This document shows, piece after piece, positions 18,610 to 34,584 of a stretch of DNA of 64,000 bases (its first letter is position 1; each line of letters opens with the position of its first letter). The DNA is taken from contig NZ_CP098514.1 in NCBI RefSeq assembly GCF_023703775.1, forward strand, positions 2,639,998 through 2,703,997, read 5' to 3'. Both the position numbers and the translations under genes were made by a program. The stretch comes from Haloplanus sp. GDY1. Lineage in GTDB: Archaea > Halobacteriota > Halobacteria > Halobacteriales > Haloferacaceae. The notes beneath the pieces were generated by a model. The model had not been told where the DNA came from and ran no database searches. It worked only from the letters and a program-made list of their open reading frames with translations.

Positions 18610-18889
18610 CGTTACCTCCGAACGGAAGGTTGATCGTGATGCTGATGAGTGGCTGACTCTTTTCTGTGCACTCATCGTCGGGAGCTCCTCGACGGCCTTC
18701 CCTCGCCTTCTCGGCGTTTCGATAAACACGCCGAATGTCCTCTGCCGACGGGCCGAGGGCGAAGAACGTCTGGTAGTTTTCGAGGACGTGATCGGGCAGT
18801 TCGTGCCCTGTCTCCTCGAGATACTCCTCTTGAATACCCTCAAGCATCTCTTCTTCATCGAAAGGAAGGTCGAACTCATCCGTCGACAT
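18596..18889 (-). CDS. Small acidic soluble protein
   Basis: 97 residues, very acidic N-terminus (MSTDEFDLPFDEEEMLEGIQ), a helical middle and LPFGGNDVDR at the end, whose Gly-Gly codons form the ribosome site of the next gene. No motif is recognised. It lies between the DPM1-like gene and the two-helix membrane protein with overlaps on both sides. Confidence 0.6.
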   Translation of the reverse strand: MSTDEFDLPFDEEEMLEGIQEEYLEETGHELPDHVLENYQTFFALGPSAEDIRRVYRNAEKAREGRRGAPDDECTEKSQPLISITINLPFGGNDVDR

Positions 18890-19634: not shown

Positions 19635-20413
19635 GCTTTCACCTCTACACTGCCGTGTTCGACATCCGCGTGGCAGCTGGCACAGAGTGTGATGAGATTG
19701 TCGATCTGGTTCGCGTCCGCTATTTCGTCGAATGCAGATCGAGGCGTAATGTGGTGAACGTGCAAATCGCGTCCAGTCCGCTTGCGATGCTGATCGCGGC
19801 CCATCCCACAGCGCACGCACTGTTCGTCATCTCTCCGGATCGCTTGCTTCCGATGGACGCCCCAGTTCTCGCTGTAATCGTCGTGAGCACTGGGATCGAA
19901 CTGAGGATGCTCGCGCCCTTTGATCCGTCCCTCGCGCCACTCTCCGTGGCACTCCGGTGAGCAAAAGGTGTGTGTCGTCCACTCACGTTCAAGATGACAC
20001 TTCGGTCGGGTGAATGTCTCGCCGCATTCGTCGCAGGTCACTTCAACAGCGCTACGGCGATTTACTGGCAACCCCGCTGCTCGCAGCGCTCCGTTCCATG
20101 AACCGAACCGATCCTCAAGCGCCCCGGCGCTGTACGCCCCGCGCCGCCGATATTCTGTGCGCGTGACAGACTTGTCTTCGTCTGCGACAGCTTGGAGATC
20201 GCGAAGCAGCTCGTCGTCAGAGTAGGTCGCCCCACGAGTGTCGTCGACATCGAGGTCCGCGGCTTCAACTGCCGCAGTCCACGACTCGAACTCGTCCCAG
20301 TACGGTCGCTCGCTGAATCTGCCTTGCTCATTCATGTCTCTAAGCCGTGGCACGGCTCCGTTCATCGCGGCAAGTCGCTTGATCTCGCCGAGCAGTTCGG
20401 CTCGTGACGCCAT
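19631..20413 (-). CDS. HNH endonuclease with homing-nuclease-associated repeats
   Basis: 260 residues. Two N-terminal copies of the roughly 50-residue HNHc-associated repeat (SRAELLGEIKRLAAMNGAVP ... SWTAAVEAADL and ELLRDLQAVADEDKSVTRTE ... SWNGALRAAGL) probably bind DNA. A Cys4 knuckle follows (CDECGETFTRPKCH, FCSPECH), then the HNH core CVRCGMGRD, LHVHHITPRS, DNLITLCASCH. It is the first gene of the leftward glycosylation operon. It starts at ATG 20413 behind GGAGGTGC. It may be a selfish homing gene, or serve defence or packaging of the element. Confidence 0.85.
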   Translation of the reverse strand: MASRAELLGEIKRLAAMNGAVPRLRDMNEQGRFSERPYWDEFESWTAAVEAADLDVDDTRGATYSDDELLRDLQAVADEDKSVTRTEYRRRGAYSAGALEDRFGSWNGALRAAGLPVNRRSAVEVTCDECGETFTRPKCHLEREWTTHTFCSPECHGEWREGRIKGREHPQFDPSAHDDYSENWGVHRKQAIRRDDEQCVRCGMGRDQHRKRTGRDLHVHHITPRSAFDEIADANQIDNLITLCASCHADVEHGSVEVKA

Positions 20414-20560
20414 CAACAGGCACCTCCGCACGTATCGCGTTGGTTTCGGTCAGAGATTCTGTCCCAACGTGTTTCGCGTATGTATAGTCGGGATTCAGCG
20501 TGCACGCACGCACACCGTTTCGAACCACAACGCCGTCTGGTGATTTTGTTTTGCATAGCG
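20414..20560 (-). promoter_or_regulatory. Promoter gap of the glycosylation operon
   Basis: 147 bases between the HNH start and the end of the ATPase gene on the same strand. Read leftwards it contains actatacata (about 20476-20487), a good TATA box, which would give a leader of about 45 bases with the GGAGGTGC ribosome site. No terminator T-run is clear for the ATPase operon. Confidence 0.4.
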
Positions 20561-21481
20561 TTAATCACCCACAGTAACCTCTCCCGAGGCGATTCTGCTC
20601 ACTGTCGATCGATGAAGATCAACGACCTCTGCGATTTCCTTTTTGTTTAGTAAGCCGCGTGCATCCACGGCGCGAATGAACTCATTCCGTGCTTCCTTCC
20701 GTGCTTGCTTGCGTTCTTTTTCAACTCGCTCGTCGACCTCGTGCTGAGGAACATACTTGTCTTCTTCATCCTCTAGCTTGGACCACTTCTGCTCGTGCAG
20801 TTCGGCAAAGACAGGGTCATCATCGGGAAGCGCGCCCCATGTCACGTCACAGATCGGTTTAGTGTAGGTCTCATCTTGGAAGGGATTGTTCTCAAGCTTG
20901 TAGACACGAGCACGGCCACGGCGCCGAATCAGGACCCAGTAGTGGGCCATCTGGCGAATCTCTTTGTCGATCTGATTGATATCTGGTAGCGTGTAGAAAC
21001 TGTACTTCTCGCCGACGCGACCCATCGCAACCTTTTCGTTTAGTTCTTGGTTGACATTCGTCATCGCCTTGCGAGCGTTGACGCCTGCCTCAGCCTCGTC
21101 GAAGACGAGCCCGGCGCCTTTCTCTTTCTCAACGTAGGCGTCGGTGAACTCTTCTGGCGTATTCGTGACTTTGTCTGGAGTGAGCCCGTCATCAGTGCGG
21201 TCAAATGCGCGGGCGAATTTGACTGCGAGGGTGGTCTTACCGGTCCCCCGGTCAGCGTAGTAGTCGCTGATGATCGCTGTCAGTTCGCGCCCTTGTTCGA
21301 CGCGGTCTTCATACTGCTCGTAAAACGGCGTCTCCTCGAAATCGGTAATCCATTCATTCATCGACCACCCATCAGGGAACTCTGGACCCTGAGTCGGCGG
21401 GTATCGATCACTCCGAAGGCCGCCACGATATGCCAACGGCGCCATACCAGCAGGCCCGCGGTAATTTTTCCAGTCGCTCAT
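20561..21481 (-). CDS. P-loop ATPase with C-terminal helix-turn-helix (assembly or packaging type)
   Basis: 306 residues. Walker A is ADRGTGKTT (76-84) and Walker B is GLVFDEAE (124-131). Downstream are a sensor-like YSFYTLPDINQIDKEI, then RRGRARVYKLENNPF (about 210), a charged helix, and a C-terminal helix-turn-helix (NKKEIAEVVDLHRSTVSRIA). The overall shape (short P-loop domain, GRxRVYK strand) recalls Zot/FtsK-HerA-like ATPases of filamentous and pleomorphic viruses, which drive assembly or DNA entry. It is last in a three-gene leftward operon that faces the membrane operon. Start ATG at 21481 overlaps the previous stop. Confidence 0.75.
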   Translation of the reverse strand: MSDWKNYRGPAGMAPLAYRGGLRSDRYPPTQGPEFPDGWSMNEWITDFEETPFYEQYEDRVEQGRELTAIISDYYADRGTGKTTLAVKFARAFDRTDDGLTPDKVTNTPEEFTDAYVEKEKGAGLVFDEAEAGVNARKAMTNVNQELNEKVAMGRVGEKYSFYTLPDINQIDKEIRQMAHYWVLIRRRGRARVYKLENNPFQDETYTKPICDVTWGALPDDDPVFAELHEQKWSKLEDEEDKYVPQHEVDERVEKERKQARKEARNEFIRAVDARGLLNKKEIAEVVDLHRSTVSRIASGEVTVGD

Positions 21482-22104
21482 AGTTCTCCTGTCGGCAGTG
21501 CACGGTCGGTTTCTTCGAGCAAGCCACACTGCTCGGCGGCGAGGTCGAGATACCGGGCCGCCCGCATCAGGATCGTCGGGCCGAGGCGCTGAGGCACTTC
21601 GACCGTCTGCTGCTCGGCACTCCAGCCATCGGCCTCGACGGTCTGTGTTTTCGTCCGATTTTGCCACGCAGAGAGTCGTTTGAGGCCACACGCCCAGTCG
21701 TACAACGGCCGCCCCTCGTCGTCAGTCACGCCCTGCGTGGTCGGCTCCACGGGCATCCCGCAGCCGGGACACGGGCCGCCGCCACTGAGATCGTGCTCTT
21801 CGCGATCGTGGACGTGGCCGCTCGCGCACGCCCACACGCGCTTGGTCGCGCGGTCTTCGGGCCAGAGTGGCGCCGACTCCCAGAGTTGTTTGACTTCGCC
21901 CGGGCGCTCAGAGATATACGGCACCAGCGCCTCGAACCACGCCAACACCGATTCGTGGAGGTTACTGTGAGCGGCCTCTTTCGGCACGTCCTCCGCGGTG
22001 CGATTCCGAACCGAGAGCCACAGTCGCCGGGCGTCGAGACACTCGCGGTATGCGCGCCGGATATTCGAGTGGTTGCCCTGTTGCTGTTGCTCAGTCGTCG
22101 CCAT
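21478..22104 (-). CDS. Zinc-binding protein of the ATPase operon, unknown function
   Basis: 208 residues. A helical N-terminus (QQQQGNHSNIRRAYRECLDA) is followed by a zinc-ribbon-like unit around residues 90-125 (ACASGHVHDREEHD, CPGCGMPVE) and a C-terminal helical part (TILMRAARYLDLAAEQCGLL). No family is recognised. ATG at 22104 lies in the last codons of the previous gene behind GGGGGTGGGG. Coupling to the ATPase suggests a shared role. Confidence 0.68.
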   Translation of the reverse strand: MATTEQQQQGNHSNIRRAYRECLDARRLWLSVRNRTAEDVPKEAAHSNLHESVLAWFEALVPYISERPGEVKQLWESAPLWPEDRATKRVWACASGHVHDREEHDLSGGGPCPGCGMPVEPTTQGVTDDEGRPLYDWACGLKRLSAWQNRTKTQTVEADGWSAEQQTVEVPQRLGPTILMRAARYLDLAAEQCGLLEETDRALPTGEL

Positions 22105-22348
22105 GGGTATCCCCACCCCCACAGAGGTCGAACACGAGGAAGCCGTTCTCGAAGTCGATGTACGGCGTCAGCTCGTCGCCTTTCCCTACGGCCAGGTTAT
22201 CCGGGCCCTCCGGCGGGACGCCGATCAGATATTGGCCTTTGTTTCGCCTGAGACTGTAGTCGCGAAGCTCGACGAGTTCACCTGCCATTGCTCTGTTCAC
22301 GGCCGCTTGCGCTTGGGTGCGCCGGTCGAAACGTGTCGACTGGGCCAT
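22091..22348 (-). CDS. First gene of the ATPase operon, 85 residues
   Basis: A small soluble protein: an Arg/Gln-rich helix (RFDRRTQAQAAVNRAMAGEL) and then a beta-rich part ending FLVFDLCGGGDTHGDD. The GGGD codons give the ribosome site of the next gene. The start at 22348 has a TATA-like tttttacta 27 bases upstream (leaderless). No function is assigned. Confidence 0.65.
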   Translation of the reverse strand: MAQSTRFDRRTQAQAAVNRAMAGELVELRDYSLRRNKGQYLIGVPPEGPDNLAVGKGDELTPYIDFENGFLVFDLCGGGDTHGDD

Positions 22349-22455
22349 TACTAATCGATAGGTGCTATCCTAGTAAAAACCCTGTAGCATACCCTAGGGT
22401 TAGCCATAGGATACTACTCTCGTATTATGGCATTCTGGGGATATATCCGCAGGTA
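22349..22455. promoter_or_regulatory. Divergent control region between ATPase and membrane operons
   Basis: 107 AT-rich bases with both promoters: tttttacta (leftwards, centre about 22375) and gtattatgg (rightwards, 22422-22430), each 27-30 bases from its start codon. Between them are short symmetric sites: gatag-gtg-ctatc (22357-22369), the palindrome accctagggt (22391-22400), and tatcct (22366) mirrored by aggata (22409). This is a likely operator for a switch between the two modules. Confidence 0.55.
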
Positions 22456-22944
22456 ATGCCTGTTACGGCAGACACGCCGACGATGGCGGCCGCGACGCGG
22501 GGCGCAGAGCCCGCCGCCCGACTCGGCCTCGACCACGACGACGCATCGACGCCCTCGCGCCTCGCGGCGCTCAAGGCAGCTGCAACCGACAAGATCGGCG
22601 AGGTAACGGACCTCGGCGAGTTCGCGTTCTCGACGGCCGACGCCTACGTGTCGGAGTACGTCGATCGCGAGGAATCGCAGTTCAACAACATCATCGGGGC
22701 AGCCATCACACTCGGACTCTCGATCATCCTGCTCATCCTGATGGCGATCGTCGCTGGCTACTTCGTCGCCGAAGCCCCCAGTGACGGCGCGTTCAGCGAG
22801 TCCATCCAGCAGGTCGAGAGTGTGGGTGGGACGGCGTTCATCCTGCTCGCCGTCGCGCTGCTCGCCGTTCCGGTGGTCGCCATCGTCGGCTACTTCATGC
22901 GGAGTGGCCTCGGCGGCTTCATCTCGGGCGGCATGACCCGATAG
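22456..22944 (+). CDS. Two-helix membrane protein, first gene of the structural-type operon
   Basis: 162 residues. A soluble N-terminus of about 80 residues is followed by helix 1 (TLGLSIILLILMAIVAGYFV, about 95-115) and helix 2 (AFILLAVALLAVPVVAIVGY, about 130-150). It ends in a Gly-rich tail (GLGGFISGGMTR). Start 22456 is set by the TATA element; longer in-frame codons overlap the other promoter. This resembles small abundant envelope proteins of pleomorphic viruses in layout only. Confidence 0.7.
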   Translation: MPVTADTPTMAAATRGAEPAARLGLDHDDASTPSRLAALKAAATDKIGEVTDLGEFAFSTADAYVSEYVDREESQFNNIIGAAITLGLSIILLILMAIVAGYFVAEAPSDGAFSESIQQVESVGGTAFILLAVALLAVPVVAIVGYFMRSGLGGFISGGMTR

Positions 22945-22999
22945 CGGCTTTCACACAGCCGTTTCCCGCATTTTCCATGACCGCAGAACCCTACAAAAT

Positions 23000-23293
23000 A
23001 TGAGCAAATGGACTGCCGCGTTCGCGCTGTTGGGCGTGCTCGTCGTCTTCGGCGCCGCCGGGACGCTCGCGATGGATGCTGCCTATCAGCAGACTCGCGA
23101 GACGCGCAACGCCTCGGCGAGCATCGCCGACCCGACGCCGCCCGCCCTCGAAACGGGGCGCGAGGTTGGTGGCGGCCTCTCGTCGATGCTGCCGTTACTT
23201 GCGTTTGTCGCCGTCCCGATGGGGATTCTCGGCATCCTCTCGCTCGGTGGCATCGCGTACGTCAGACGGTCGTCAGGGGGGCTGAGTCGATAA
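23000..23293 (+). CDS. Small membrane protein with signal anchor
   Basis: 97 residues: hydrophobic N-terminus (5-24, AAFALLGVLVVFGAAGTLAM), an extracytoplasmic-type loop, then a second helix (SMLPLLAFVAVPMGILGILS) and RRSSGG. It is preceded by an eight-codon ORF (22978-23001) that ends in ATGA overlap with its start, perhaps for translational coupling. Its TAA overlaps the next ATG. Confidence 0.65.
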   Translation: MSKWTAAFALLGVLVVFGAAGTLAMDAAYQQTRETRNASASIADPTPPALETGREVGGGLSSMLPLLAFVAVPMGILGILSLGGIAYVRRSSGGLSR

Positions 23294-23622
23294 TGTACGA
23301 AACCCAGTACATCCTCCTGTTTCTCGCCGGCTGTGCGCTGACCGCCGGCGCGTGGACCGACCACGCCGCCGGCTTCAGCGCCGGCGCGGGCGTGTTCGTC
23401 TGGATCATCATCGGCTTCGCCAGCCTGGCCGTCGAGCCGGCCCAGGCCGACGTGGTCGCGTCGCCGGCGCTGGCGTGGCTGAGCTTCGGCAACGCCGGGA
23501 TGCACGCGGTGCGGCTGGCGCTGCATCTCCAGGCGGTGATGAGCGACGCTGACGAGGACGCGATGGCTCTCGACCCGATCCAGCAACTGCGCGATACTGA
23601 CGACGACCTTCCCAACCCATGA
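23293..23622 (+). CDS. Three-helix membrane protein
   Basis: 109 residues. Helices at about 6-22, 29-45 and 55-80 (ILLFLAGCALTAGAWTDHAA; GAGVFVWIIIGFASLAVEPA; ALAWLSFGNAGMHAVRLALH), then an acidic soluble tail of about 25 residues. Overlaps both neighbours. Unknown function; part of the membrane operon. Confidence 0.65.
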   Translation: MYETQYILLFLAGCALTAGAWTDHAAGFSAGAGVFVWIIIGFASLAVEPAQADVVASPALAWLSFGNAGMHAVRLALHLQAVMSDADEDAMALDPIQQLRDTDDDLPNP

Positions 23623-24206
23623 GTCAAACTGCACAAGACATCGCCGACGAACGACGCGAACAGCAACTCCGCGAGGGCGCGATCGGGCAGGCCGCGCAGT
23701 CGGCCCAGCTCGATCAGGCCGCTCGCGGGCGCCCCCAGACGTTCATCCGCGAGATGGGCGACCCGGACATCTCCGCGCCGGCCGACGCCAGCAACTTCGA
23801 GGAGATGCTGGCGCCGGAACTCTCCCACCATCACGTCTTCGGCAACATCACACGCGAGGACTTCGAGGGGCTCAAGATCACCAATCAGGGGCTTGCGATG
23901 CAGGTCAAAGCCGAACACCCGCGCAAGGCTGGCCCGTCCTCGAAATGCACGGGCCAGTACCGCCGGGAGATGTACGGCGAGGACAAGGTCGTGCTGACCG
24001 ACGACAAGGCCCGCGAGGTCGACTCGACGCTCGGCGAGGAGGGAACGCGGACGATGATGCAGTCCAAATCCGTCGAGGGAATGGCCTTCAAGGGCGCCAC
24101 CCAGGTCAAAAGCGTCGTCAAAACCGAAGGCGCGGCCAGCGACGACGATGGGGGCGGCCTGATGGACTCGATCCGTGGCGCGCTCGGGATCGGAGGGGAT
24201 GACTGA
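23619..24206 (+). CDS. Soluble protein of the membrane operon
   Basis: 195 residues and the only clearly soluble member between membrane genes. The N-terminus is Gln/Ala/Arg-rich and helical, the middle is mixed (SHHHVFGNITREDFEGLKIT; SKCTGQYRREMYGEDKVVL), and it ends with DDDGGGLMDSIRGALGIGGDD, where MDSIRGALGI is an amphipathic helix that could touch the membrane. It might be an internal matrix-like or adaptor protein; that is inference. Overlaps both neighbours. Confidence 0.65.
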   Translation: MSQTAQDIADERREQQLREGAIGQAAQSAQLDQAARGRPQTFIREMGDPDISAPADASNFEEMLAPELSHHHVFGNITREDFEGLKITNQGLAMQVKAEHPRKAGPSSKCTGQYRREMYGEDKVVLTDDKAREVDSTLGEEGTRTMMQSKSVEGMAFKGATQVKSVVKTEGAASDDDGGGLMDSIRGALGIGGDD

Positions 24207-25378
24207 TGTTCGGGTTCATCAAGGGCCTGATCCCCGGCACCGCACGGTACAGTCGCAAGCATCACGTCAAGTATCTCCGGAAGAAAGCCCGCGGCCACGA
24301 CGCCCTCCTGCTCGTCGAGTGGGAGGACGGCAAGCTGACCGAACTCGGCGCCGACGTGCATCCCGAGATGGATGGGTGGTACGAGGCGACCAACGGCCTC
24401 GTGTTCGCGCCAGCGGGCGAGGGCGCTGATCCGGTCGATTACTACGGCGTCCCGACGATCCGCTGTCACAGCCAGATCGCCTGCCCATTCAGCACGGAGG
24501 CGTGTCTCGCCGCCGACTTCGACGAGGCGGGGCAGTTCCAGTACAACATCGACCGCGAGGACGGCACGACCCAGCAGGTCGTTGAGGTCGATATGGCCGA
24601 CCAGCCCCAGGCCGACCAGCCCGGCGCCGGCAACGGTGCGAACGGCCAGGCGACGGCCGACGGTGGCGAGGAGATGGTCAGGTCGTATGACCTGCGCCCG
24701 CCCGCTGGGGCCGTGGGCTACTCGTTCTCGCTGACCCAGGCGAAACAGCGCGCGCCGAACGCAATCAGCGCGAATATGATCCGCCGGGCCGTGGAGTACG
24801 GCAAGGAGAAAGCCCGGAACGAAGGGCTGTACATGAAGGGCCTGCTGCATGGCGGCGGGATGATCCTGGGGACGCTCATCATCATCGCCCTGCTGTACAT
24901 CATCGGCGGCGCCGTCCTCGGCGGTGGCGGTGGGGGCGGTGGCTCCGGTGGCGGGGGCGGCGGGTTCGTCTTCGGGTCGCTGCTGTTGCTGGCTGGGCCG
25001 CGACTCGGTCGCGCCCGTGACGAGCTCAAGGCCGACCTGGAGCAGATGCGCGAGCAGATTCGCCGCCACCCGCGACAGTTCGCGCTGGCGTCTCTCCGCG
25101 GCATCCTCTTGGGACTGAGCGCCGCGACAGCGATGATCGGGTACTGCCTCATGCTGCTGACCAGCGCCGTCTTCTGGGGCGAGTGGTTCGGCACCCACCC
25201 GACAGTCGCGAGCGAGCCACTGTGGGTGGCTGGCCAGTCGGTGCCACTGGCGACCGTGGTCGGGCTGCTCCACTGGATCGCGGCCGCCGCGCCGGTTCTG
25301 CTGCTACTGTACTGGTACACTGACCGACTGGCGGGCGCAGTCCGGACGCTTCGGGAGGCCAGGTATGCACAGCAGTAG
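24206..25378 (+). CDS. Polytopic membrane protein with Gly-rich linker
   Basis: 390 residues. A soluble N-terminal domain (1-205) begins MFGFIKGLIPGTARYSRKHH and includes VDYYGVPTIRCHSQIACPFS (three Cys/His). A DGGEE linker is followed by helix 1 (about 212-233, LGTLIIIALLYIIGG), a run of about 17 Gly with one Ser (about 238-255), helix 2 and a coiled coil (LKADLEQMREQIRRHPRQFA). Helices 3 and 4 follow near 300-325 and 350-370. The charged N-terminal region may bind DNA or the inner membrane face. No family is recognised. Confidence 0.7.
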   Translation: MFGFIKGLIPGTARYSRKHHVKYLRKKARGHDALLLVEWEDGKLTELGADVHPEMDGWYEATNGLVFAPAGEGADPVDYYGVPTIRCHSQIACPFSTEACLAADFDEAGQFQYNIDREDGTTQQVVEVDMADQPQADQPGAGNGANGQATADGGEEMVRSYDLRPPAGAVGYSFSLTQAKQRAPNAISANMIRRAVEYGKEKARNEGLYMKGLLHGGGMILGTLIIIALLYIIGGAVLGGGGGGGGSGGGGGGFVFGSLLLLAGPRLGRARDELKADLEQMREQIRRHPRQFALASLRGILLGLSAATAMIGYCLMLLTSAVFWGEWFGTHPTVASEPLWVAGQSVPLATVVGLLHWIAAAAPVLLLLYWYTDRLAGAVRTLREARYAQQ

Positions 25379-25454
25379 CGCCTACTGGAACGGCTTTCTC
25401 GCCGTTCTCACCCGGGGACTAACCCGTCTCGGGCCGGGCACCGGAGGCAGGTAG
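25365..25454 (+). CDS. Possible 29-residue peptide
   Basis: MHSSSAYWNGFLAVLTRGLT ending RLGPGTGGR. It starts inside the end of the previous gene behind GGGAGGCCAGGT and ends two bases before the next ATG, so it would bridge a gap in an otherwise overlapping operon. It has one short amphipathic helix. Its size makes it uncertain. Confidence 0.4.
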   Translation: MHSSSAYWNGFLAVLTRGLTRLGPGTGGR

Positions 25455-25456
25455 CC

Positions 25457-25990
25457 ATGGCGGCCCGGTCGGGATCGCTCGCCTGGGTCGTGCTTGCCGG
25501 CGCCGTGAGCATCGGCATCGCCGCCGCGATGTGGGGTGTGCTGGATTCGCAGTTTCTCGATACACTCATCGCGACCGACCGCTGGAGCGCCGAGCAAGGC
25601 TCGACGCTTGCGGTCGGGCGCCAGTACGTCATCCTCGCGTGGAACTGGTTCCTGTTGATCGTCGTCCTCCGGGTCGGCATCGAGGCACTCGTGGCCTCCC
25701 GACTGACTGGCGCGACGACGATGCTGCCGTTCGCGACGCTCGTGCTCCTGTCGATCCACATCCTGCTCGTGTTGTGGATGCTGACCATCCCCGAGATGGC
25801 CCAGGAGATGCTCACACTCGCGACCAACGACTTCAGCGGCGCCCTCCAGTCGATGGACGGGCTTGCACTGGCTGTTGACTTGGCCTACCAGTGGGGGATC
25901 GGCATCCTGCCGTCGGTCCTGCTGGTGATCGCTGACGGCTGGTATCTCTCCAGCCCGATTCGCAACGACATGCTCCGCCGAGGTGTCTAA
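25457..25990 (+). CDS. Four-helix membrane protein
   Basis: 177 residues with helices at about 7-25, 55-75, 85-108 and 145-165 (SLAWVVLAGAVSIGIAAAMW; ILAWNWFLLIVVLRVGIEAL; LPFATLVLLSIHILLVLWML; GIGILPSVLLVIADGWYL). The loop NDFSGALQSMDG probably lies outside. It ends three bases before the next gene. No family recognised. Confidence 0.68.
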   Translation: MAARSGSLAWVVLAGAVSIGIAAAMWGVLDSQFLDTLIATDRWSAEQGSTLAVGRQYVILAWNWFLLIVVLRVGIEALVASRLTGATTMLPFATLVLLSIHILLVLWMLTIPEMAQEMLTLATNDFSGALQSMDGLALAVDLAYQWGIGILPSVLLVIADGWYLSSPIRNDMLRRGV

Positions 25991-25993
25991 CTC

Positions 25994-26620
25994 ATGACCG
26001 ACAACCAAACCGAACTCGAAGCACTCCGCGACCGTGTTGCACAGCTCGAAGACCAGCAGGAACAACTCGCCCAAGGCGCCACCGACGCGCAGGGGCGCTC
26101 GTGGACGGTGAGCGACTTCCTCTCGCTCGGACTGACGCGACGCCAAGCCGTCACGGCGCTCGGCCTCATCGCCGGCGGCATGGCGCTCCCGACGGCGCTG
26201 ACCCAATCAGCAGTGGCGGCGCCCGGGGACGACGGTGACACGGTGCTCGGCTCGTCGTCGAATCGGTGGGATGCCTGGATGGACGAGCTCGACGCGAATG
26301 CGGTCAGTACAGAGAAGATAGATAGCAGTCCGGGATATAGCTGGAGCGCCGAGGACAGATCATTTGATACTGTTTATAACGCCCCATCTGACAAAGATAT
26401 TTATTTTGTCGTATCAGCCGAAGCAGAGGCAGATAACACACTTGTCAATCTCGGAGTCTATATCGATGGATCATTCCGGGTGTCCCCATCAGAGTCTGTT
26501 GATTCCGGGGACCGTGTGCTCACTCCAGTTTATCGTATTCCAGCTGGAGTCTCTTACGAGCTGCGGGCGTTCGGAGATTCCGGATCTTATACGATCAACA
26601 ATTGGAACGAGTTACGATAG
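25994..26620 (+). CDS. Tat-exported protein with foreign-looking C-terminal beta domain
   Basis: 208 residues. Residues 1-30 form a coiled coil (ELEALRDRVAQLEDQQEQLA). An internal twin-arginine signal follows (SLGLTRRQAVTALGLIAGG, RR at 49-50, AVAA cleavage region near 75). From about 105 a beta-rich domain (FDTVYNAPSDKDIYFVVSAE; RVLTPVYRIPAGVSYELRAF) has the look of tail-fibre or receptor-binding tips of haloviruses. At the same point (about 26300) base composition turns AT-rich and codon use changes, a sign of module exchange. It is probably a surface adhesin of the particle or cell. Confidence 0.75.
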   Translation: MTDNQTELEALRDRVAQLEDQQEQLAQGATDAQGRSWTVSDFLSLGLTRRQAVTALGLIAGGMALPTALTQSAVAAPGDDGDTVLGSSSNRWDAWMDELDANAVSTEKIDSSPGYSWSAEDRSFDTVYNAPSDKDIYFVVSAEAEADNTLVNLGVYIDGSFRVSPSESVDSGDRVLTPVYRIPAGVSYELRAFGDSGSYTINNWNELR

Positions 26621-26675
26621 TGACGTATAGTGACCACTCAGCTCAAAAATAAAAACACGAAATAAAATCAGATAG
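26621..26675 (+). promoter_or_regulatory. AT-rich promoter of the spike-like gene
   Basis: A 55-base gap with aaaaataaaaacacgaaataa; a TATA-like aataaaa is centred about 27 bases before the ATG at 26676. The spike-like gene and those after it may therefore have their own promoter inside the operon. Confidence 0.45.
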
Positions 26676-28679
26676 ATGAACTCCAAACCGTCCCGCGGCA
26701 TCGTCCTCATCATCGCGCTCCTGCTATCGACGAGTGCCGTCGGGACGGCCGCTGCGGGCACGATCCCAATCTCCCAAAACGACAATGGAATCGTGCTCAC
26801 GGAACCGGGCGGCCCCTCGATCACGCTGACTGGAGACACGACGATGTACACCGAGACAGGCAGCGTCGACTCCTCGACAGTCCAGTGGAACACGACCGCC
26901 GGGAACGCGAGTTTCAAGGCCAGCGGCGCGGCGGCTGCTACTATCGACGCATCCTCGCTGGATGCCACGACAACCTCACTCACCGAGATCAATACGACGG
27001 AGGCGGCGCTGACGGTTCGGACAGGGGAGACGCCCGCGACGACGATCGACGGCGGCGTGACTGCGCTGGAGTACTACACTGCCGGTGAGACGACACTCGG
27101 TGACGGACAGGCTGATTTCGTCTATTCGGCCTCCGGCAGCGGCTCGGTCACGCTCCGTGGGCTCCCAGCGAACACAGAGATCGCCGCCGCAACACTGAGC
27201 GGCACCGAACTCGGGGCGACCACGAGCGATAGCAGCGGCACCGCGACCATCTCGGTCAGTAGTGCCACTGACGCTCAGGTCGTGCTCTTCCAGGCCGACG
27301 CACCGACGCTGTCCGGGGCAGACCCAGCCGACGGCGCCGAGACCAACAGCTACGACGGCGACATTAGCATCAACGTCTCCGATCCGGATTTCGCGACGCG
27401 GCAGGGCGATTCGGTCACGGTGACGGCCACTGACACCGACGGCAACACGATCGGCAGCCAAACCGTCAGTAGCAATGGGACTGTTGCCTTCGACTACGCC
27501 GCGATACCGGGCCCGAATACCGTTGAGTGGACAGCCGCTGATGGCTACGACAACCAAGACTCGTTCACCCACGAGTTCACGACGCCGAGCACGCTGACAC
27601 TCTACAACGAGTCGGCACCCAGCCAGGTCGTCGATGACGCAGGCGAACTCCGCGTGCGCTTTTTCGGCGAGAGCGACACTGTCGTCACGAAATCCACCGC
27701 CGACGGCACGCTCAATCTGACCGGGGTCCCAGCCAACGAGCGCTTTGTCGTCACTGTCAGCGACGAGAATGATGACTACTACTACCGGCGGATCATCATC
27801 GACTCGATTTACGAGCAGAAGGAGATCTATCTCCTCCCGCGCAGCGCCGACGCCAACGAGGTCGAGTTCCGCCTCAACGACTTTACTGGCGGCGAGTTCG
27901 ATGCCCCCTCGACACGCCTCTATGTGGAGCGTGCGATTACCAAGGACTTCAACGGCGACGGTAGCAACACGACACAGTACCAGGTCGTCCTCGGGGATAC
28001 CTTCGGCTCCTCGGGCGGCTTCCCGGCGGTGCTGGCGACCAACGAGCGCTATCGCCTCCGACTCGTCAACAACGATGGCGACGTGCGGATGCTCGGCTCG
28101 TACACGCCGACGCGCGACGCCATCGAGCAACTGTCCGTGCGTGGCCTCTCCTTTGAGCCGCCCGAGGGGAAGGGCTGGACCACAAACCTCAACGTCTCAA
28201 CCGAAGGACGCCGGTCGGTCACCTGGAAGTACATCGACGAGAGCGACGCCACTTCGTCGCTAAATGTCTCGATCCGAAGCTCCAACGGCACCGTCGTCTA
28301 TCAGGACTCAGTCCAAGACCCGGGCAACTACGCCGTCTATGGCGTTCCACTCGACAACGAGACCGAGTATGTCGTCGAGTGGAACGCCACCCGTGGTGGC
28401 GACACCATCGGTCAGACGCGGCCGGTCGGTGGCGGCGACCTCGGCATCGACATCCCGCTGGATAGCGACTGGCTCGGGACGCTCGGGATGCTCTCCGTCG
28501 TGTTCACCTTGTCGCTGGCGGGCGTCCGCAAATCCGCCTACGTCGCCATGTCGGCGGTCGTGATGGCAGGGCTGCTGATGGCACTCCAGGCGGTCAACAT
28601 CTACCCGCCGCTGTGGTGGCTTGCGGCCCTGATCGCCGTCGGCGGGTACCTCAAAACAACCCAGAGACCAGGCCAATGA
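26676..28679 (+). CDS. Spike-like secreted protein with C-terminal membrane anchor
   Basis: 667 residues. Signal peptide 1-29 (SRGIVLIIALLLSTSAVGTA). The large outer part (30-595) is beta-rich: a Thr/Ser-rich domain, an Ig-like repeat around 205-305 (GADPADGAETNSYDGDISIN; AAIPGPNTVEWTAADGYDNQ), then carboxypeptidase-regulatory-like or Ig folds (SEGRRSVTW region omitted for length). Three C-terminal helices (about 600-660, WLGTLGMLSVVFTLSLAGV; VVMAGLLMALQAVNI; WWLAALIAVGGYL) anchor it. Size and layout fit an envelope spike or S-layer-like adhesin. It is the best candidate for the main surface protein of the element, and for glycosylation by the element's own enzymes. Confidence 0.78.
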   Translation: MNSKPSRGIVLIIALLLSTSAVGTAAAGTIPISQNDNGIVLTEPGGPSITLTGDTTMYTETGSVDSSTVQWNTTAGNASFKASGAAAATIDASSLDATTTSLTEINTTEAALTVRTGETPATTIDGGVTALEYYTAGETTLGDGQADFVYSASGSGSVTLRGLPANTEIAAATLSGTELGATTSDSSGTATISVSSATDAQVVLFQADAPTLSGADPADGAETNSYDGDISINVSDPDFATRQGDSVTVTATDTDGNTIGSQTVSSNGTVAFDYAAIPGPNTVEWTAADGYDNQDSFTHEFTTPSTLTLYNESAPSQVVDDAGELRVRFFGESDTVVTKSTADGTLNLTGVPANERFVVTVSDENDDYYYRRIIIDSIYEQKEIYLLPRSADANEVEFRLNDFTGGEFDAPSTRLYVERAITKDFNGDGSNTTQYQVVLGDTFGSSGGFPAVLATNERYRLRLVNNDGDVRMLGSYTPTRDAIEQLSVRGLSFEPPEGKGWTTNLNVSTEGRRSVTWKYIDESDATSSLNVSIRSSNGTVVYQDSVQDPGNYAVYGVPLDNETEYVVEWNATRGGDTIGQTRPVGGGDLGIDIPLDSDWLGTLGMLSVVFTLSLAGVRKSAYVAMSAVVMAGLLMALQAVNIYPPLWWLAALIAVGGYLKTTQRPGQ

Positions 28680-29059
28680 CACGCATCCAATCAGTCCGGA
28701 TCGGTGCGACGATGGTCGCCTTTATCCTCGCGCTGACCACGGTTAACGCCCTTGCGGTCGGTGCGGGGGTCGGCATCAGTCTTGGCGCCAGCGGCGTCGA
28801 TACCGAGGCACTCAACCAACAGACCCAGAACTTCCAACAGCCCGAGGTGCAGGGCATCGGCCAGCAAGACCCCGGGTTCTTCGGCGTCGCGGTGGCGCTG
28901 AAGCGGACGCTGGATCAGCTGTGGGCGATCACGACGCGCCTGCATCTGATCCTCGGCGCCTACGGCGTCCCGACAGTGATCGGCGCGAGCGTCCAGGCGA
29001 TGGTTGATTTCACGATGGCCATCGGCGGACTCCAGATTCTCGGGAGGTTCAAGTTCTGA
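28676..29059 (+). CDS. Small membrane protein after the spike gene
   Basis: 127 residues. A signal peptide-like N-terminus (MVAFILALTTVNALAVGAGV), a Gln-rich outer segment (NQQTQNFQQPEVQGIGQQDP), and one or two weak helices (HLILGAYGVPTVIGASVQAM; FTMAIGGLQILGRF). Its start overlaps the stop of the spike gene (ATGA), so equal production with the spike is likely. It may be a spike partner or envelope protein; no family. Confidence 0.68.
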   Translation: MTRIQSVRIGATMVAFILALTTVNALAVGAGVGISLGASGVDTEALNQQTQNFQQPEVQGIGQQDPGFFGVAVALKRTLDQLWAITTRLHLILGAYGVPTVIGASVQAMVDFTMAIGGLQILGRFKF

Positions 29060-29061
29060 CC

Positions 29062-29376
29062 ATGGTCGAGCAACTTCTCCAGGCGACCGATCCGGACTGG
29101 TTCCAGTACTGGAAAGACATGCAGTGGTTCAAAGCCGTCTTCGAGCCACTGATCTGGCGCTTTGGCCGGGCCGGCATCGGGCTGCTGATCGGCGCCCCAT
29201 TCACGATGGCGCTCTGGCAACAGGCAGAGAGCGTCGTCCCGCCAGCGGTGATGCTCACGCTCTTCATGGGCCTCCTGCTCGGCGGCGCCCCGGCGGGCGC
29301 GACCATCGGCGGCTACCTCATTATCGTCGTCGCGACGGCGGTGGCCTACCGGTCGATCTTCGGGGGTGAGCGATGA
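29062..29376 (+). CDS. Three-helix membrane protein
   Basis: 104 residues. A Trp-rich amphipathic start (DPDWFQYWKDMQWFKAVFEP) is followed by helices at about 38-55, 60-78 and 80-98 (AGIGLLIGAPFTMALW; PPAVMLTLFMGLLLGGAPAG; TIGGYLIIVVATAVAYRSIF). It begins two bases after the previous stop and overlaps the next gene. Function unknown. Confidence 0.65.
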   Translation: MVEQLLQATDPDWFQYWKDMQWFKAVFEPLIWRFGRAGIGLLIGAPFTMALWQQAESVVPPAVMLTLFMGLLLGGAPAGATIGGYLIIVVATAVAYRSIFGGER

Positions 29377-29795
29377 GCCGGACGCCCGGCTGGTGGCGCG
29401 CGCTCCCGACGTGGGCTCAGGCCCTGTGGCTCTCGGCGTGGCTCCCCGGCGCCGTCGCTCACGAGCTGACGCATGCGCTGGTCGCCCGGCCGTGGGGCGC
29501 GGCGCGGCTCAACTGGGACGAGGTCGCCTGCGATATCGAGTGGGATGGCGACGACTATCTGGGGCGGGCCGTCGCCGCGATCGCCCCGCTGGTCGTGGGG
29601 AGCGCCCTGACCGTTGGCCTCTGGCTGACGGTCGCCGGCCGGCCGGGGAGTATCATCGGCCTCGCCGTCTCGGCGTACGCCATCCTCAACCTCGCGATCT
29701 ACACGGTCGCCTCGGCGGTCGACCTGCATCGGGCGACCGTCTACGCGTACCTGTGGTACCGCCAGCGAACCAGCACTGGAGTTGATCATGCATGA
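29373..29795 (+). CDS. Membrane protein with HExxH motif (possible protease)
   Basis: 140 residues, three to four membrane helices. HELTH at residues 30-34 sits at the end of helix 1, as in intramembrane or membrane-bound zinc proteases. Later ILNLAIYTVASAVDLHRATV offers Asp and His as further ligands. It resembles small M50/DUF3267-like proteins; the fit is partial. In this operon it could cut or mature the spike or scaffold proteins. It overlaps both neighbours by ATGA. Confidence 0.65.
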   Translation: MSRTPGWWRALPTWAQALWLSAWLPGAVAHELTHALVARPWGAARLNWDEVACDIEWDGDDYLGRAVAAIAPLVVGSALTVGLWLTVAGRPGSIIGLAVSAYAILNLAIYTVASAVDLHRATVYAYLWYRQRTSTGVDHA

Positions 29796-32700
29796 GCACG
29801 AACGACACCAGCGACACGACCGACAGTTCGTCGACGGACACAACGTCCACGACGGACAGTAGCACCGACACGACCAACACCAGCAGCACGGACACCACCA
29901 CGACAACCGACACCACCCAGGAGAACTCCACGACGAGCGAGCCGAGTACGACATCGACGACCGACACCAGCACCGACAGCACCACCGATACGACGACAGC
30001 CAGCGGCGCGCAGTCAGGGAGCAACAACGCCGACGCGCAATCCTCGGCGTTCGACGGTTCCGCAGGTGCCGGCACCACGGCTCAACCGGACGACCTCCCC
30101 GAACAGTATCGCGAGCAAGCCAGCGAGTTCCGCCAGGAGGCGGCCAGCGACCTCGACCGCTACGCCCCGAGCGATCTCCGTGTCACGGCCGAGGATGGGC
30201 AACTCGACGCTGAAGTCAAACCCGCCGCTCGCGAGCGCGAACTCCGCGAACAGGCCGCCAGTGAGAGCGACGCCTACGACCCGACGGACTTCCAAATCAC
30301 GGAGGGCGAGGACGGCATGACCGCCCAGGTCGCCGAGCCAGCGCTCCGCGAGCAAGCGGCCAGCCAGTCGGATCGCTACGCACCCTCGGACTTCGAGGTC
30401 GCTCGACAGGACGGCCGCCTCGTCGCCCAGGTCGCCGAACAGGCGCGGCGGCGCGAACTCCGGGAACAGGCCGCCAGCGAAGCCGATGCCTACGGACCAC
30501 AAGACTTCGAGATCACTGAGACCGGGGACGGACTGACCGCCCAGGTCGCCGAGCCAGCACTCCGTGAGCAGGCAGCCAGTCAATCTCCGTACGATCCTTC
30601 GGAGTACGTCGTCACCGATGACGGCGGTGTGCGCCCCTCGAAAGCAGCTGTCCGCGAGCAGGCTGCGTCAGAGCTTGACCGATACAGTGAGAGTGACATC
30701 CGTGTCACCGTGCAGGATGGCACGCTTGAGCCAGTCGTCACGGAACAGGCCAAACGCCGCGAACTCCGGGAGCAGGCCGCCAGCGAAGCCGATGCTTACA
30801 AGCCAAGTGACTTTACGATTTCAGAGGGTGAGGACGGACTGACCGCCACCGTCGCCGAGGACGCTCAGCGCCGCGAACTTCGGGAGGCTTACCGCGAGCA
30901 GGTCGCCGAGCAACACGACATCGCCGAGTCACAAGTTTCCGTCAACCTACCCGAACTGTCCGCCACGACTCAGCAATTCGACGCCAACAACGACCGCCAG
31001 ATCGGGATGCAGGAGAAACTGGAGGCCATCAAGGACAAAAACGAGGGCGAGATCACCCAGCAGCAACTCCAGCAAGTACTCGACGCCCCCGAACCCAGCG
31101 TCGAACTCGGTGATGCGGCCACGCGGGAACTCGCCGCCCGCGAGTCGGATGTCTTCCGCGCGGACGACCTCGAAGTCGTTGACGGCGAGGTCCAACCCAA
31201 GCGCGACACGCCGTCACCCGAGGCCGTCAGCATCGGGCTCGGGATCGCGAACGAGGGTCCACCGGGTGCCCCAGGAAGCGACCCGACCGGCGAGATCGCG
31301 TGGGTCGGCCCGGATGGCGAGCGCATCGCGACCGGGATCGACGCCCAGTGGACCGACGACGACCCGTACTCCGCCTACGTCGATGTCCCGGATCAACGCG
31401 GCGAGTGGCGCCTCCAGGTCGGCGGCGAGACTGTCGAGACGGTCGACGTGGGTGCGGTCGGCGCCACCCGCGACACCTACCAGGCCGACGTGCCCGCTGG
31501 CTGGAACGCTGACGTAATCAGTATCGACGAGTCCGCTGGCACCGGCTCGGTCGCACAGGCGGCGTACGACCCGGACGAGCGCTACACGCCGGCCTCGGTC
31601 GACGAGGACGTGGTCGCGGGCGCCGGCGCCGCCGAGGCACTCCAGGCCGGCGTGACACCCGAGACACTCAGCGAGATCAACCCGATCAGCGAGCGCGAGG
31701 GCGCCGAGATCGCCGCGACCATCGAGCAAGGCGGCTCGCTCCAATTGACCCAGCCCGACGTGTCCGCGCCCGAGAACATCGCCGATGCCGACCAGAACCA
31801 GGCCATCCGCGAGGATATCGCCGCCGAGATCGAGGGCGTCAGCGCCGAGGAGTTGGACATCGTCGCGACCGGCAGCGGCACCGAGATCGTCGGCCCGGGC
31901 GGCGGGACGATCACCTCGCCCGGCAGCGGTGGCGGGACGCCCGGGCGGTCGCCGACCGATGCGACCTTCGACGGCAGCCGGTCGGTCGGGGATGCGGGCA
32001 CGGGCGCCGGTGTGACGGCCGGGCTGGAGGCCGCGCGGCAGGAAGCCTGGCAAGAGGTCGCTGGGCAGTCGGAGTTCCTCTCTCCGGAGGATGTCGCAAC
32101 CAGCGTCGAGGATGGGCAAGTCTCGGCCAGCGTCGAGCAGCCGGCGCTCAAGCGGATGGCGCGCCAGGAGACGGCCGCGGGGCGCGAAAACGTCCAGCCG
32201 AGTGATGTCGAGGCGACGATCGTCGATGGTGAGGTGCAGACGAGTATCCCGTTCCTTGAACAGGAGCAGCGCGCTGCCGTGAATCGCTACGGACAGCGAC
32301 AACTCGACGCGCAGAACCGCGAAGTGGGTAACTTCGAGAACGAGCGATTAGTGCAGGAGACGACGACGAGGCTGTCTGCCCAAGACCAATTCTCGACCGG
32401 CCGCGCCGAGGTCGTCGCAAACTCTGCTCCGACTGGTCCGCCGATCGATCTGGGCGATACGCCAGTTAACGTCCCGGTCACTGAGCGCGAGGGGCAGATG
32501 CTGACAGCCCAAGATCAGTTCTCAACCGGGACGCGTGAGCGAATCCAAGCAACTGGCGAGACCGAACGTCTCGAAACGCTACTGAACCGCGAAGCTGAGG
32601 AACTCACCGCAAACGCGGGCGATATTGGGGCAAGCCTCCAACCTGAGTATGAAGTCAGCGCGACGACCGAATCCATGCTGGCTGCCCAGGACCAGCAGGC

Positions 32701-34582
32701 GATCACGGGTGGGACAGACGAAACTGCCCGCGCCACAGCCGAAGGGGTCGCTGATGTAGTCAACCCGTTCGGTATTGCCGCCGGGGCGAAAGAGATCGGC
32801 GAGACAGCTGCGTTCGCCGCCGGGACGACTGCGGATGCCGAAGGGCTCGACGCTGAGGACCGGACGAATATCGCTGCCGGACAGGCGGCTGCTGCCGGGC
32901 GTCAGTTCGCCGACTTCGCCGGGGATAACCCGCGGCGGGTTGGGGCCTCACTTATCACTGGCACGGCAGTAGCCGCGGCGAGTGCGCCCGCGGTCGGCGC
33001 CCTCGGCAAGCGGGCCTTCGTCGGCGCCCGCGGCCGGTTGGCAACCCGAGGACTCGACTTCGAAAGTCGCGTCGAGTTCGAAAACATCGAACGTCCAGAC
33101 GTGCGGTCCGGTGAGAATCGGCTGACGACTTTCAGCGAGGAGGCGGTCCCTGGCGGCAAACGGAGCACCGACCCCGACACGTTCCCAGTAGAGACGGAGC
33201 CGCGCGATCCGGGCGCAGAACTTCGCAACCTCGCCGACGAGTACGACGATCCGGCGATCCGGGACGCGCTCGATGCCGACCCAGGGGAGCAGACGCTGTT
33301 CTCTGCCCGAAGCGGGATCAAAGGCGACCGCTTCGAACCGCGGTCACAGCGCAACTACGACCCCGACGCCGGATTCTTCTCGGGGTCTGTGTCCCGGAAC
33401 TTCCTTGATGTTGACGAGACGCCTGAGTCTGGCGGCGTGCGGGCGCCCAACCCCACCGGGGCGATCCAGAGCCTCGTCGATGCAGTGAAACAGGAAGACA
33501 CGCCAAACATCGTCGCCACTGCTGGCGACGTTCGGACGCTGCCGGACGATGTGCGAACCCGCGGCGAGATCACGGACTACCTGCAAGAGCGCCGTAACAC
33601 GGGCGAGTTTTTCGTTCGGCAGTCAGACAATCAATCCGGCGAGGCAGAGGCGATCGTGTCTGCCTCCGGCGAGGGAAAGGACAACCCGTGGCGCGGCGCC
33701 GGCCGCGTCGACGAAGGCGAAGCGACGCAGTTCGTCGAAGTCAACGATCCTGCTGTCACGAAGGTGGGTGGCGAGCGGGTCCCGATCCAAGTGTTCCGAC
33801 AGGATACTGGCGACCTCGACACCTCCGCTGGAGTGACGGGGCGATTCTCGTCGTTCCTCGAAGACGACCGCGGGATGGTCGGCGGCGGTGGGCGTCGGCG
33901 GGCAGGTCGGTCGGCTCGGCGCACTCGCTCGGACGATCTCGACAGCGAGCCCGGATATCGCCCCGGCGGCCAACCCGGGACGCCGCTTGGCCCGCCGGCG
34001 AGTGGCTTCCCTGCCTCAGGCAGTTCGATGCCCGGCAGTGACCCCGACTCGCCAGCGGGAGCGGCGCCATCGTCTGGGTTCGCATCGCCCAGCGAGACTG
34101 TCGAGTCTGTCGCGCCGTCCGGCGTGTCGTCGCCAGTCGAGAGTGTCGCGCCGTCGGACGCGCCATCCTCACCGATCGAGAGTACTGCGCCCTCAAACGT
34201 GCCCTCGTCGGCGCCGGCATCTTCTGGGTCGCCGTCTGGTGGCACCGGGTTCGGTAGCGGATCGCCCCCCACGAGCGGTATCAACAATCCACCGTACGAC
34301 CCGCCGTCGAGTCCGCCCTACGAACCACCGTCGAGTCCCCCCTACGAACCACCGTCGAGTCCCCCCTACGAACCACCGTCGAATCCACCGTACGACCCGC
34401 CGTCGAATCCGCCGACGAGTCCACCACCGACCACACCGACAGAACCGCCGACTCGGCCACCAGAGTGGGATATGGACTGGGATGACAAGGAGTATCCCAA
34501 CAGCTTCGAAACCGACCCGCAGCGCTTCGAGAATCCGGTCGACAACCCTTACGAGTTCCTCGGCTTCAACGTCGATCTGTAG
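29792..34582 (+). CDS. 1596-residue scaffold-like protein with repeats, EF-hand and PPxY tail
   Basis: The largest element gene. Residues 1-95 are low-complexity Thr/Ser/Asp. About 105-390 hold seven to eight copies of a roughly 40-residue unit, LREQAASExDAYxPSDFxIT then DGLTAxVAExA; related copies recur near 445 and 755-830. FDANNDRQIGMQE (396-408) is a good EF-hand loop, with a weaker second one. A hydrophobic stretch (VGASLITGTAVAAASAPAVG, about 1050-1070) may be a membrane segment. A mixed alpha/beta part follows (about 1080-1370, ending in GGGGRRRAGRSARRTRS). The tail is Ser/Pro-rich with five PPYxPPS units (1500-1539) and an acidic end. No enzyme motif is seen. A scaffold or matrix role is inferred. 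Confidence 0.72.
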   Translation: MSTNDTSDTTDSSSTDTTSTTDSSTDTTNTSSTDTTTTTDTTQENSTTSEPSTTSTTDTSTDSTTDTTTASGAQSGSNNADAQSSAFDGSAGAGTTAQPDDLPEQYREQASEFRQEAASDLDRYAPSDLRVTAEDGQLDAEVKPAARERELREQAASESDAYDPTDFQITEGEDGMTAQVAEPALREQAASQSDRYAPSDFEVARQDGRLVAQVAEQARRRELREQAASEADAYGPQDFEITETGDGLTAQVAEPALREQAASQSPYDPSEYVVTDDGGVRPSKAAVREQAASELDRYSESDIRVTVQDGTLEPVVTEQAKRRELREQAASEADAYKPSDFTISEGEDGLTATVAEDAQRRELREAYREQVAEQHDIAESQVSVNLPELSATTQQFDANNDRQIGMQEKLEAIKDKNEGEITQQQLQQVLDAPEPSVELGDAATRELAARESDVFRADDLEVVDGEVQPKRDTPSPEAVSIGLGIANEGPPGAPGSDPTGEIAWVGPDGERIATGIDAQWTDDDPYSAYVDVPDQRGEWRLQVGGETVETVDVGAVGATRDTYQADVPAGWNADVISIDESAGTGSVAQAAYDPDERYTPASVDEDVVAGAGAAEALQAGVTPETLSEINPISEREGAEIAATIEQGGSLQLTQPDVSAPENIADADQNQAIREDIAAEIEGVSAEELDIVATGSGTEIVGPGGGTITSPGSGGGTPGRSPTDATFDGSRSVGDAGTGAGVTAGLEAARQEAWQEVAGQSEFLSPEDVATSVEDGQVSASVEQPALKRMARQETAAGRENVQPSDVEATIVDGEVQTSIPFLEQEQRAAVNRYGQRQLDAQNREVGNFENERLVQETTTRLSAQDQFSTGRAEVVANSAPTGPPIDLGDTPVNVPVTEREGQMLTAQDQFSTGTRERIQATGETERLETLLNREAEELTANAGDIGASLQPEYEVSATTESMLAAQDQQAITGGTDETARATAEGVADVVNPFGIAAGAKEIGETAAFAAGTTADAEGLDAEDRTNIAAGQAAAAGRQFADFAGDNPRRVGASLITGTAVAAASAPAVGALGKRAFVGARGRLATRGLDFESRVEFENIERPDVRSGENRLTTFSEEAVPGGKRSTDPDTFPVETEPRDPGAELRNLADEYDDPAIRDALDADPGEQTLFSARSGIKGDRFEPRSQRNYDPDAGFFSGSVSRNFLDVDETPESGGVRAPNPTGAIQSLVDAVKQEDTPNIVATAGDVRTLPDDVRTRGEITDYLQERRNTGEFFVRQSDNQSGEAEAIVSASGEGKDNPWRGAGRVDEGEATQFVEVNDPAVTKVGGERVPIQVFRQDTGDLDTSAGVTGRFSSFLEDDRGMVGGGGRRRAGRSARRTRSDDLDSEPGYRPGGQPGTPLGPPASGFPASGSSMPGSDPDSPAGAAPSSGFASPSETVESVAPSGVSSPVESVAPSDAPSSPIESTAPSNVPSSAPASSGSPSGGTGFGSGSPPTSGINNPPYDPPSSPPYEPPSSPPYEPPSSPPYEPPSNPPYDPPSNPPTSPPPTTPTEPPTRPPEWDMDWDDKEYPNSFETDPQRFENPVDNPYEFLGFNVDL
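34289..34432 (+). repeat. 24-bp tandem repeat encoding PPYxPPSx
   Basis: Six 24-base units from 34289 (five with PPY, the last degenerate PPTSPPPT) give PPYDPPSS, PPYEPPSS three times in near-identical form, and PPYDPPSN. They lie in frame inside the large scaffold gene. Copy number may vary by slippage. Confidence 0.85.
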
Positions 34583-34584
34583 GG

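Follow-up and report, generated by a model that had tools for sequence, protein, structure and literature searches.

Within the 64,000-nucleotide stretch of the Haloplanus sp. GDY1 chromosome analysed here (the window), a gene encoding a protein of 208 residues switches to AT-rich codons about halfway along its length, which raises the question of whether its C-terminal part came from elsewhere. We consider it probable that the gene encodes a surface adhesin of a provirus resembling lemon-shaped viruses, composed of a conserved N-terminal module and a replaceable tip which derives from a low-GC source and was exchanged at the linker joining the two.

Composition break and provirus context

Maximum-likelihood segmentation of positions 25457-27600 delimited a low-GC segment at 26297-26688 (GC 0.452, compared with 0.662 to the left and 0.645 to the right) with a log-likelihood gain of 27. 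This region is the most AT-rich 370 bp of the window, the next separate stretch, at 12161, having a GC content of 0.495. A change-point test on third codon positions, from which Met and Trp codons were excluded, placed the best single break in GC3 after codon 104 of 208 (nt 26306; LLR 14.2), with 77 of 98 codons ending in G or C before the break and 43 of 102 after it (0.79 to 0.42; Fisher p 1.5e-7). No change point as high was obtained in 5000 permutations (p 0.0002), and none of 489 segments of 95 codons from 34 other genes of the window was as low in GC3 (minimum 0.483). Thus, the low-GC stretch is not due to chance. The gene for a Zot-like ATPase has AT-rich codons at both ends and, with GC3 down to 0.48, was the next-lowest of the genes sampled.

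Both edges of the stretch fall on biological borders. On the left, the codon break coincides with a domain boundary directly after the linker (residues 84-104); on the right, the segment ends at the start codon of the next gene, which encodes a spike-like protein and whose first 40 codons are GC-rich again (31 of 39 in GC3). An earlier note on this DNA had placed the AT-rich codons at 26300-26675, which agrees with segmentation and the GC3 test to about 10 bases, and its description of the first half of the gene as GC-rich like the neighbours is borne out by the counts and flanking values given above. Apart from the oddity of the stretch itself, nothing points to an assembly error, contamination or a decaying insertion, and we regard such an origin as very improbable given that the frame is open through the break, that both edges lie at the linker and the spike start, that the encoded domain is complete to a conserved C-terminal W-x-E-L-R, and that relatives display the same kind of break.

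Table 1. Features of the provirus and of the 208-aa gene (window coordinates).
Feature	Coordinates	Strand	Basis
Integrated provirus, 32 kb, related to LSV-48N	8398..40629		16-bp direct repeat; genes in common with LSV-48N
Integrase adjoining the left att repeat	8483..10087	-	LSV-48N integrase, E 6e-65
Second tyrosine recombinase	13921..14526	+	Pfam Phage_integrase E 4.4e-8; LSV-48N E 3.6e-14
Zot-like P-loop ATPase	20561..21691	-	Pfam Zot E 7.7e-4, just below cut-off; LSV-48N counterpart E 2.5e-8
Small membrane protein, capsid-like candidate	22288..22944	+	Relatives' profile matches LSV-48N 11580-12080, 1.7e-10
Conserved 195-aa protein of the structural region	23619..24206	+	Profile matches LSV-48N 12863-13462, 1.6e-28
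Conserved membrane protein adjoining the 195-aa gene	24206..25378	+	Relatives in L031, L032, L039
208-aa gene: predicted coiled coil, Tat-type signal, linker, putative recognition tip	25994..26620	+	N-module and tip homologies
Predicted N-terminal helix / coiled coil, residues 3-26	26000..26071	+	Single-sequence model, pLDDT about 70
Tat-type signal with AxA end, residues 48-75	26135..26218	+	RR in aligned N-modules
Linker VLGSSSNRWDAWMDELDANAV, residues 84-104, last GC-rich part	26243..26305	+	Aligns with relatives' linker
Low-GC cassette: tip coding part and 55-bp gap before the spike gene	26306..26675	+	GC3 change point, segmentation
Putative recognition tip, residues 116-208, homologous to tail-fibre C-terminal domains	26339..26617	+	Phage-only profiles
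Spike-like protein, 667 aa, signal sequence, C-terminal membrane helices	26676..28679	+	Homologues in LSV-48N and in 31 other haloarchaeal genomes of 392
DUF7845 replication protein (Rep-Arvir family)	35971..37767	-	Pfam E 1.7e-85; LSV-48N E 4.4e-19

The gene lies in an integrated provirus (Table 1) bounded by a 16-bp direct repeat (8398-8413 and 40614-40629), the second copy of which is the exact 3' end of a tRNA-Pro(ggg) gene at 40614-40688. Judged by its genes, the provirus appears to belong with the haloarchaeal lemon-shaped viruses of the LSV-48N type. LSV-48N (PP151251; EMBO Rep 2025, PMC12714723), reported as a chronically shed virus for which lemon-shaped virions were demonstrated, has in common with the provirus the integrase, the second recombinase, the P-loop ATPase, the 195-aa protein, small membrane proteins, the spike and the DUF7845 protein, the last of which has been reported from LSV-48N and other archaeal elements (PMC13107129). 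LSV-48N was also matched by profiles for the 195-aa protein and the small membrane proteins (1.6e-28, 5.6e-14 and 1.7e-10), and the spikes are 33% identical over 49% of the query (E 3e-30; also scored E 1.2e-45).

The most abundant virion protein of LSV-48N is reported to contain a beta-sandwich at residues 365-549 (PMC12714723), and we infer that it is the 904-aa spike, since the Ig-like domain found there by Pfam at 370-453 fits this description. In contrast to the window provirus, LSV-48N yielded no Tat-module match in its whole record; its spike (904 aa as annotated) carries a longer N-terminal part of low GC3 (0.63 versus 0.81 in the core), while the window spike is the short form without a long N-terminal recognition extension. 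The provirus further encodes a CAP-domain protein (34585-35655, minus strand; Pfam CAP E 5e-10) adjoining a low-complexity, acidic protein of 1596 aa (29792-34582, plus strand), whose sequence contains REQAASExDxYxPxDF-type repeats and ends in a proline-rich stretch; relatives, too, encode long acidic proteins in their structural region (e.g. L031 9874-14445).

A common N-terminal module with different tips

The first half of the 208-aa protein starts with a heptad-like pattern, LEALRDRVAQLEDQQEQL, read from the sequence of residues 3-26, followed by a twin-arginine, a hydrophobic run and an AxA site at residues 48-75, which we take to be a Tat-type signal, so that export by the Tat pathway is predicted. 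Relatives were gathered by means of the 195-aa gene (13 of 384 genomes), a spike profile (32 of 392 genomes) and plasmid and virus records. The twelve elements analysed for N-module alignment, tips and GC3 (L037 included, L041 left out) follow one N-terminal plan of helix, RR signal, mostly AxA, and linker. The RR is invariant in all twelve aligned N-modules, a hydrophobic run follows and AxA is present in most, and the relatives' linker, of the type 'GT.DDP..aiYvDqL', aligns with that of the window protein, right after which the change point lies.

For pairwise comparison, N-module and tip were separated by a fixed rule, 57 residues from the RR. The N-modules proved mutually related (36 of 66 pairs at E<0.01 and 20 of 66 at E<1e-5), compared with 4 of 132 and 0 of 132 pairs, respectively, when they were set against 11 control N-termini with similar signals; among the controls themselves, one pair fell below 1e-5, namely the two spikes of L080 and L083. 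Conversely, the tips following the linker in the same Tat-module proteins gave no pair at E<0.01 out of 89 in phmmer. The conserved N-terminus and variable C-terminus anticipated by the earlier note were thus found, the tips being mostly unalignable, and homologues with the same sequence and composition over the whole gene did not occur. BLASTP linked one tip pair, L039 and L086, at E 0.002, as well as two short stretches at 0.017 and 0.026; not every tip pair is unrelated, then, as the L039 and L086 tips may both be LamG-like. Pfam assigned a LamG domain to the L039 tip (E 1.5e-23) and a beta-helix to that of L074 (E 7e-11), while 7 of the 10 proteins scanned had no Pfam match at E<0.01, and for these seven a 'beta-helix' or 'C1q-like' label is our reading of the sequence. 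A zinc carboxypeptidase frame (Pfam E 2e-9) lies 3' of the L031 tip.

The closest N-module (49% over 69 aa) is encoded on plasmid unnamed6 of Natrinema sp. DC36 (NZ_CP084478; L039 15098-16281), where it precedes the spike in the same place as in the window provirus. Its tip is an unrelated LamG domain in a separate frame that starts after TGA-CG-ATG, whereas module and tip of the window protein share one frame. As tblastn of the whole protein against plasmids gave no match and this plasmid relative was later found by phmmer, the negative tblastn result reflects a limit of that search.

Some features of the relatives deserve mention in their own right. Tat module and tip are separate frames in L039 (15098-16281), L086 (4233-5548) and L074 (4987-7163); in L039 and L086 the N-module stops and the tip follows via TGA-CG-ATG, right after an 'SPxxGDVWIDTS'-like motif. 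Do such split frames encode two subunits, or do they serve programmed tip variation? In L037, a decayed spike remnant with stops (G160:C169 9754-10119) directly follows an intact Tat-module gene, and L042 (Halomicrobium urmianum plasmid unnamed3) comprises tandem element copies about 14 kb apart with the same protein accessions.

Kinship of the window tip with tail-fibre tips

Searches of Pfam, PHROGs and PDB sequences with the tip and the whole gene returned nothing significant, and a direct PHROG scan of the tip found no family; its homology became visible only with profiles built for this analysis. The first lead was a weak tblastn match (E 0.3, 94% covered) to the tail-fibre C-terminus of Roseobacter phage CRP-6. 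The CRP-6 domain led to 12 further phage records, of which eight were used after second records of the same phage and ICBM3 had been left out. In all nine phage proteins the domain lies at the end or within 3 residues of it, e.g. in PM2 gp37 and the PG1 tail fibre H, and these phage domains correspond to PHROGs 18834, 18794 and 26525 (tail fibre protein).

In a search of 5265 frames, the nine-sequence, phage-only profile retrieved the window gene at E 1.7e-7, the next unrelated frame scoring 0.84, and an eight-sequence profile without CRP-6 retrieved it at E 5.4e-7 (28.3 bits) among 5660 ORFs. With the latter profile the isolated tip scored 30.8 bits and 500 shuffles reached at most 4.6. The match covers the whole domain and extends to residue 208 of 208, so that the window tip resembles bacterial tailed-phage tips, such as that of Pectobacterium phage PM2 gp37, along its entire length and ends at the same C-terminal W-x-E-L-R. 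On this sequence evidence the window tip is homologous to the C-terminal tips of bacterial tail-fibre proteins. While bacterial phages carry the domain on a tail fibre, the window provirus has it behind an archaeal-virus N-module with a Tat-type signal. Structure models were poor (pLDDT 64 and 56): the tip model, at pLDDT 64, gave best Foldseek hits of E 4e-4 in BFVD and E 9e-3 in PDB, and at this low confidence VIA-align related it at Z about 6 to mixed beta-sandwiches including C1q.

Searched alone against 293 haloarchaeal genomes, the tip returned, besides itself, only weak matches (best E 0.006) that were taken as noise, so a profile search was needed. With a profile including the window tip, 8 of 372 haloarchaeal genomes were found to carry the domain at E<=0.01, one of them the genome of the window itself. 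Four of the seven other carriers were examined (L137, L138, L139 and L140), and the phage-only profile also finds all four. The domain gene of L138 adjoins baseplate and tape-measure genes and that of L139 a tape-measure gene, which identifies both as tailed proviruses. The domain gene of L137 has as its neighbour the gene for a capsid protein with 34% identity to its SNJ1 counterpart and 29-32% to the capsid proteins of two other icosahedral viruses, making L137 an SNJ1-like icosahedral provirus. L140 has a similar gene order, and its PHROG scan was without matches. The tip domain would therefore occur with three virion types, provided that kinship suffices to class the window provirus as lemon-shaped. 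In each of the four carriers the tip has a lower GC3 than the remainder of the gene that encodes it, but significantly so (p<0.05) in only one, and the L139 tip lies above its locus mean in composition, a weaker trend than that among the Tat-module elements.

No relative was found in viral contigs or genome contigs searched with the protein, nor in viral contigs searched with the tip, and neither a near-identical donor or recipient of the tip nor a donor at the DNA level was found. ParA matches in plasmids and 'tail tubular protein B' matches, all at E about 1 or more, were dropped as chance.

Recognition modules, spikes and the reading of low GC3

Across the family, GC3 was higher in the N-module than in the tip in 11 of 12 elements (Wilcoxon p 0.007), L037 showing the opposite pattern and L086 no real difference, and higher in the spike than in the tip in 11 of 11 elements (p 0.001; L037, without a spike, was left out), where these and the following p values treat elements as independent although related elements are not fully so. 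Spikes were compared in 34 elements, excluding L096 (spike over two frames), L037 (spike remnant with stops), L099 (no spike frame), the duplicates L073 (of L041), L079 (of L040), L087 and the second L042 copy, and further second spike copies such as G148:C3, the second of G289 and G265:C4. Of 18 elements with short spikes (up to 760 aa), 12 have a Tat module in the vicinity of the spike, L041 included and L037 left out, compared with 0 of 16 with long spikes (p 3.7e-5); absence here means not within the flanks searched (4-14 kb upstream and 0.5-4.4 kb downstream in elements lacking a match). The sole Tat-module match of L041, a short-spike element, is weak (E 1e-5) and lies about 9 kb away on the other strand; with this match taken as absent, the association has p 1.3e-4.

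Long spikes carry extra N-terminal domains, which Pfam identified as LamG in 3 of 9 scanned (L080, L083 and L094) and as a PQQ propeller in 4 of 9 (L032, L033, L088 and L089). In all 16 of the 16 long spikes, GC3 is lower in the N-terminal part than over the final 375 codons (by 0.13 on average, p 3e-5), a tendency that is absent from short spikes (8 of 18, p 0.64). Since GC3 is lower both in the tips and in the N-terminal parts of long spikes, low GC accompanies the recognition module irrespective of where the module is joined. Equal-score spike matches occurred in a main and a second contig in G148 (C1 and C3; the G148 sequence matches plasmid PL23) and G265 (C1 and C4), which suggests an integrated and a free form.

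The family-wide low GC3 of recognition modules, not special to the window provirus, is what would be expected had no exchange taken place and had the tip evolved in place under diversifying selection, its low GC3 reflecting relaxed codon selection together with AT-biased mutation in a domain that changes fast and is weakly expressed. We nevertheless judge in-place evolution to be quite unlikely: the tips have different folds (Pfam matches to LamG and beta-helix, and the tail-fibre family), which goes beyond point divergence, the window tip is nearer to the tail-fibre tips of other viruses than to the tips on its own N-module family, and the break falls at one codon while the neighbouring spike, also predicted to be extracellular, retains high GC3. 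Exchange of a recognition tip is well supported by comparative sequence data, namely the common N-module, the mostly unrelated tips, the tail-fibre homology and the low GC3 that tracks the module, and we infer an exchange event from these. Of the earlier note's proposal that the recognition domain was recently exchanged, exchange holds, given the break at the domain boundary, the common N-module, the mostly unrelated tips and the tail-fibre homology, while 'recent' is not earned, as low GC3 is general among the modules of this family and no near-identical donor or recipient was found. The low value may be a property of the source pool of the modules, or of their codon usage, and not a sign of when one transfer took place.

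As for where the protein acts, its Tat-type signal and AxA site point to release from the cell or display on the cell surface, and a CAP-domain protein is likewise encoded in the provirus; both would suit a secreted or cell-surface factor of the lysogen which, for example, alters adhesion or blocks superinfection. Such a role outside the virion seems unlikely, however, in view of the gene's position immediately ahead of the spike, or separated from it by tip frames alone, in 8 of 12 elements, the exceptions being L041, L042, L076 and L091, of a tip family that is found at tail-fibre ends, and of the lectin-like domains that elements without a Tat-module gene carry on the spike itself. We thus favour a location on the virion, where the conserved N-module (coiled coil, Tat-type signal and linker) would serve folding, export and docking beside the spike encoded downstream. 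The Tat module would carry the folded tip across the membrane and present it beside the spike, and the replaceable C-terminal tip would contact a host surface receptor, so that replacement at the linker would change recognition. Cleavage at the AxA site would remove the coiled coil from the mature protein, which complicates a role as a stalk; in this case the coiled coil may act before export, e.g. in trimer assembly. The slot of the window provirus would be occupied by a member of the tail-fibre tip family that came from a low-GC source through exchange at the linker. Its counterpart in related elements may hold LamG lectin, right-handed beta-helix or C1q-like domains; in elements lacking the slot, the recognition module would be attached directly to a longer spike at the N-terminus.

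In tailed phages, the exchange of receptor-binding tips is a well-known phenomenon. For haloarchaeal tailed viruses of the Hafunaviridae, adhesin exchange has been reported (PMC8651126, PMC9229481), and their adhesins, described there as host-range determinants in a hypervariable slot and thought to be exchanged between viruses, may be likened to the window tip. They are, as far as these reports describe them, glycine-rich, gp38-like proteins of tailed viruses, whereas the window tip is another domain in a provirus of the lemon-shaped virus group. A literature search that covered mostly titles and abstract openings returned no description of recognition-tip exchange in lemon-shaped archaeal viruses, nor of the common tip domain.

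The host recognition of lemon-shaped archaeal viruses is little known, and the window tip suggests that microbial viruses of quite dissimilar kinds take their recognition parts from a shared stock. Whether unrelated haloarchaeal viruses (lemon-shaped, icosahedral with internal membrane, and tailed) share one circulating stock of modules, docked either on a Tat adapter or on the spike N-terminus and keeping a low-GC signature against a high-GC viral backbone, is to our mind evenly balanced; as modules would keep their low GC against the backbone, a composition break could be used to find the host-range determinant where the receptor is unknown. If tip exchange in lemon-shaped viruses holds true, the tip would be a candidate host-range determinant for the LSV-48N group, the recognition parts of three virus architectures would be tied together, and a GC3 break at the junction would provide a simple sequence signal for such parts in other haloarchaeal proviruses.
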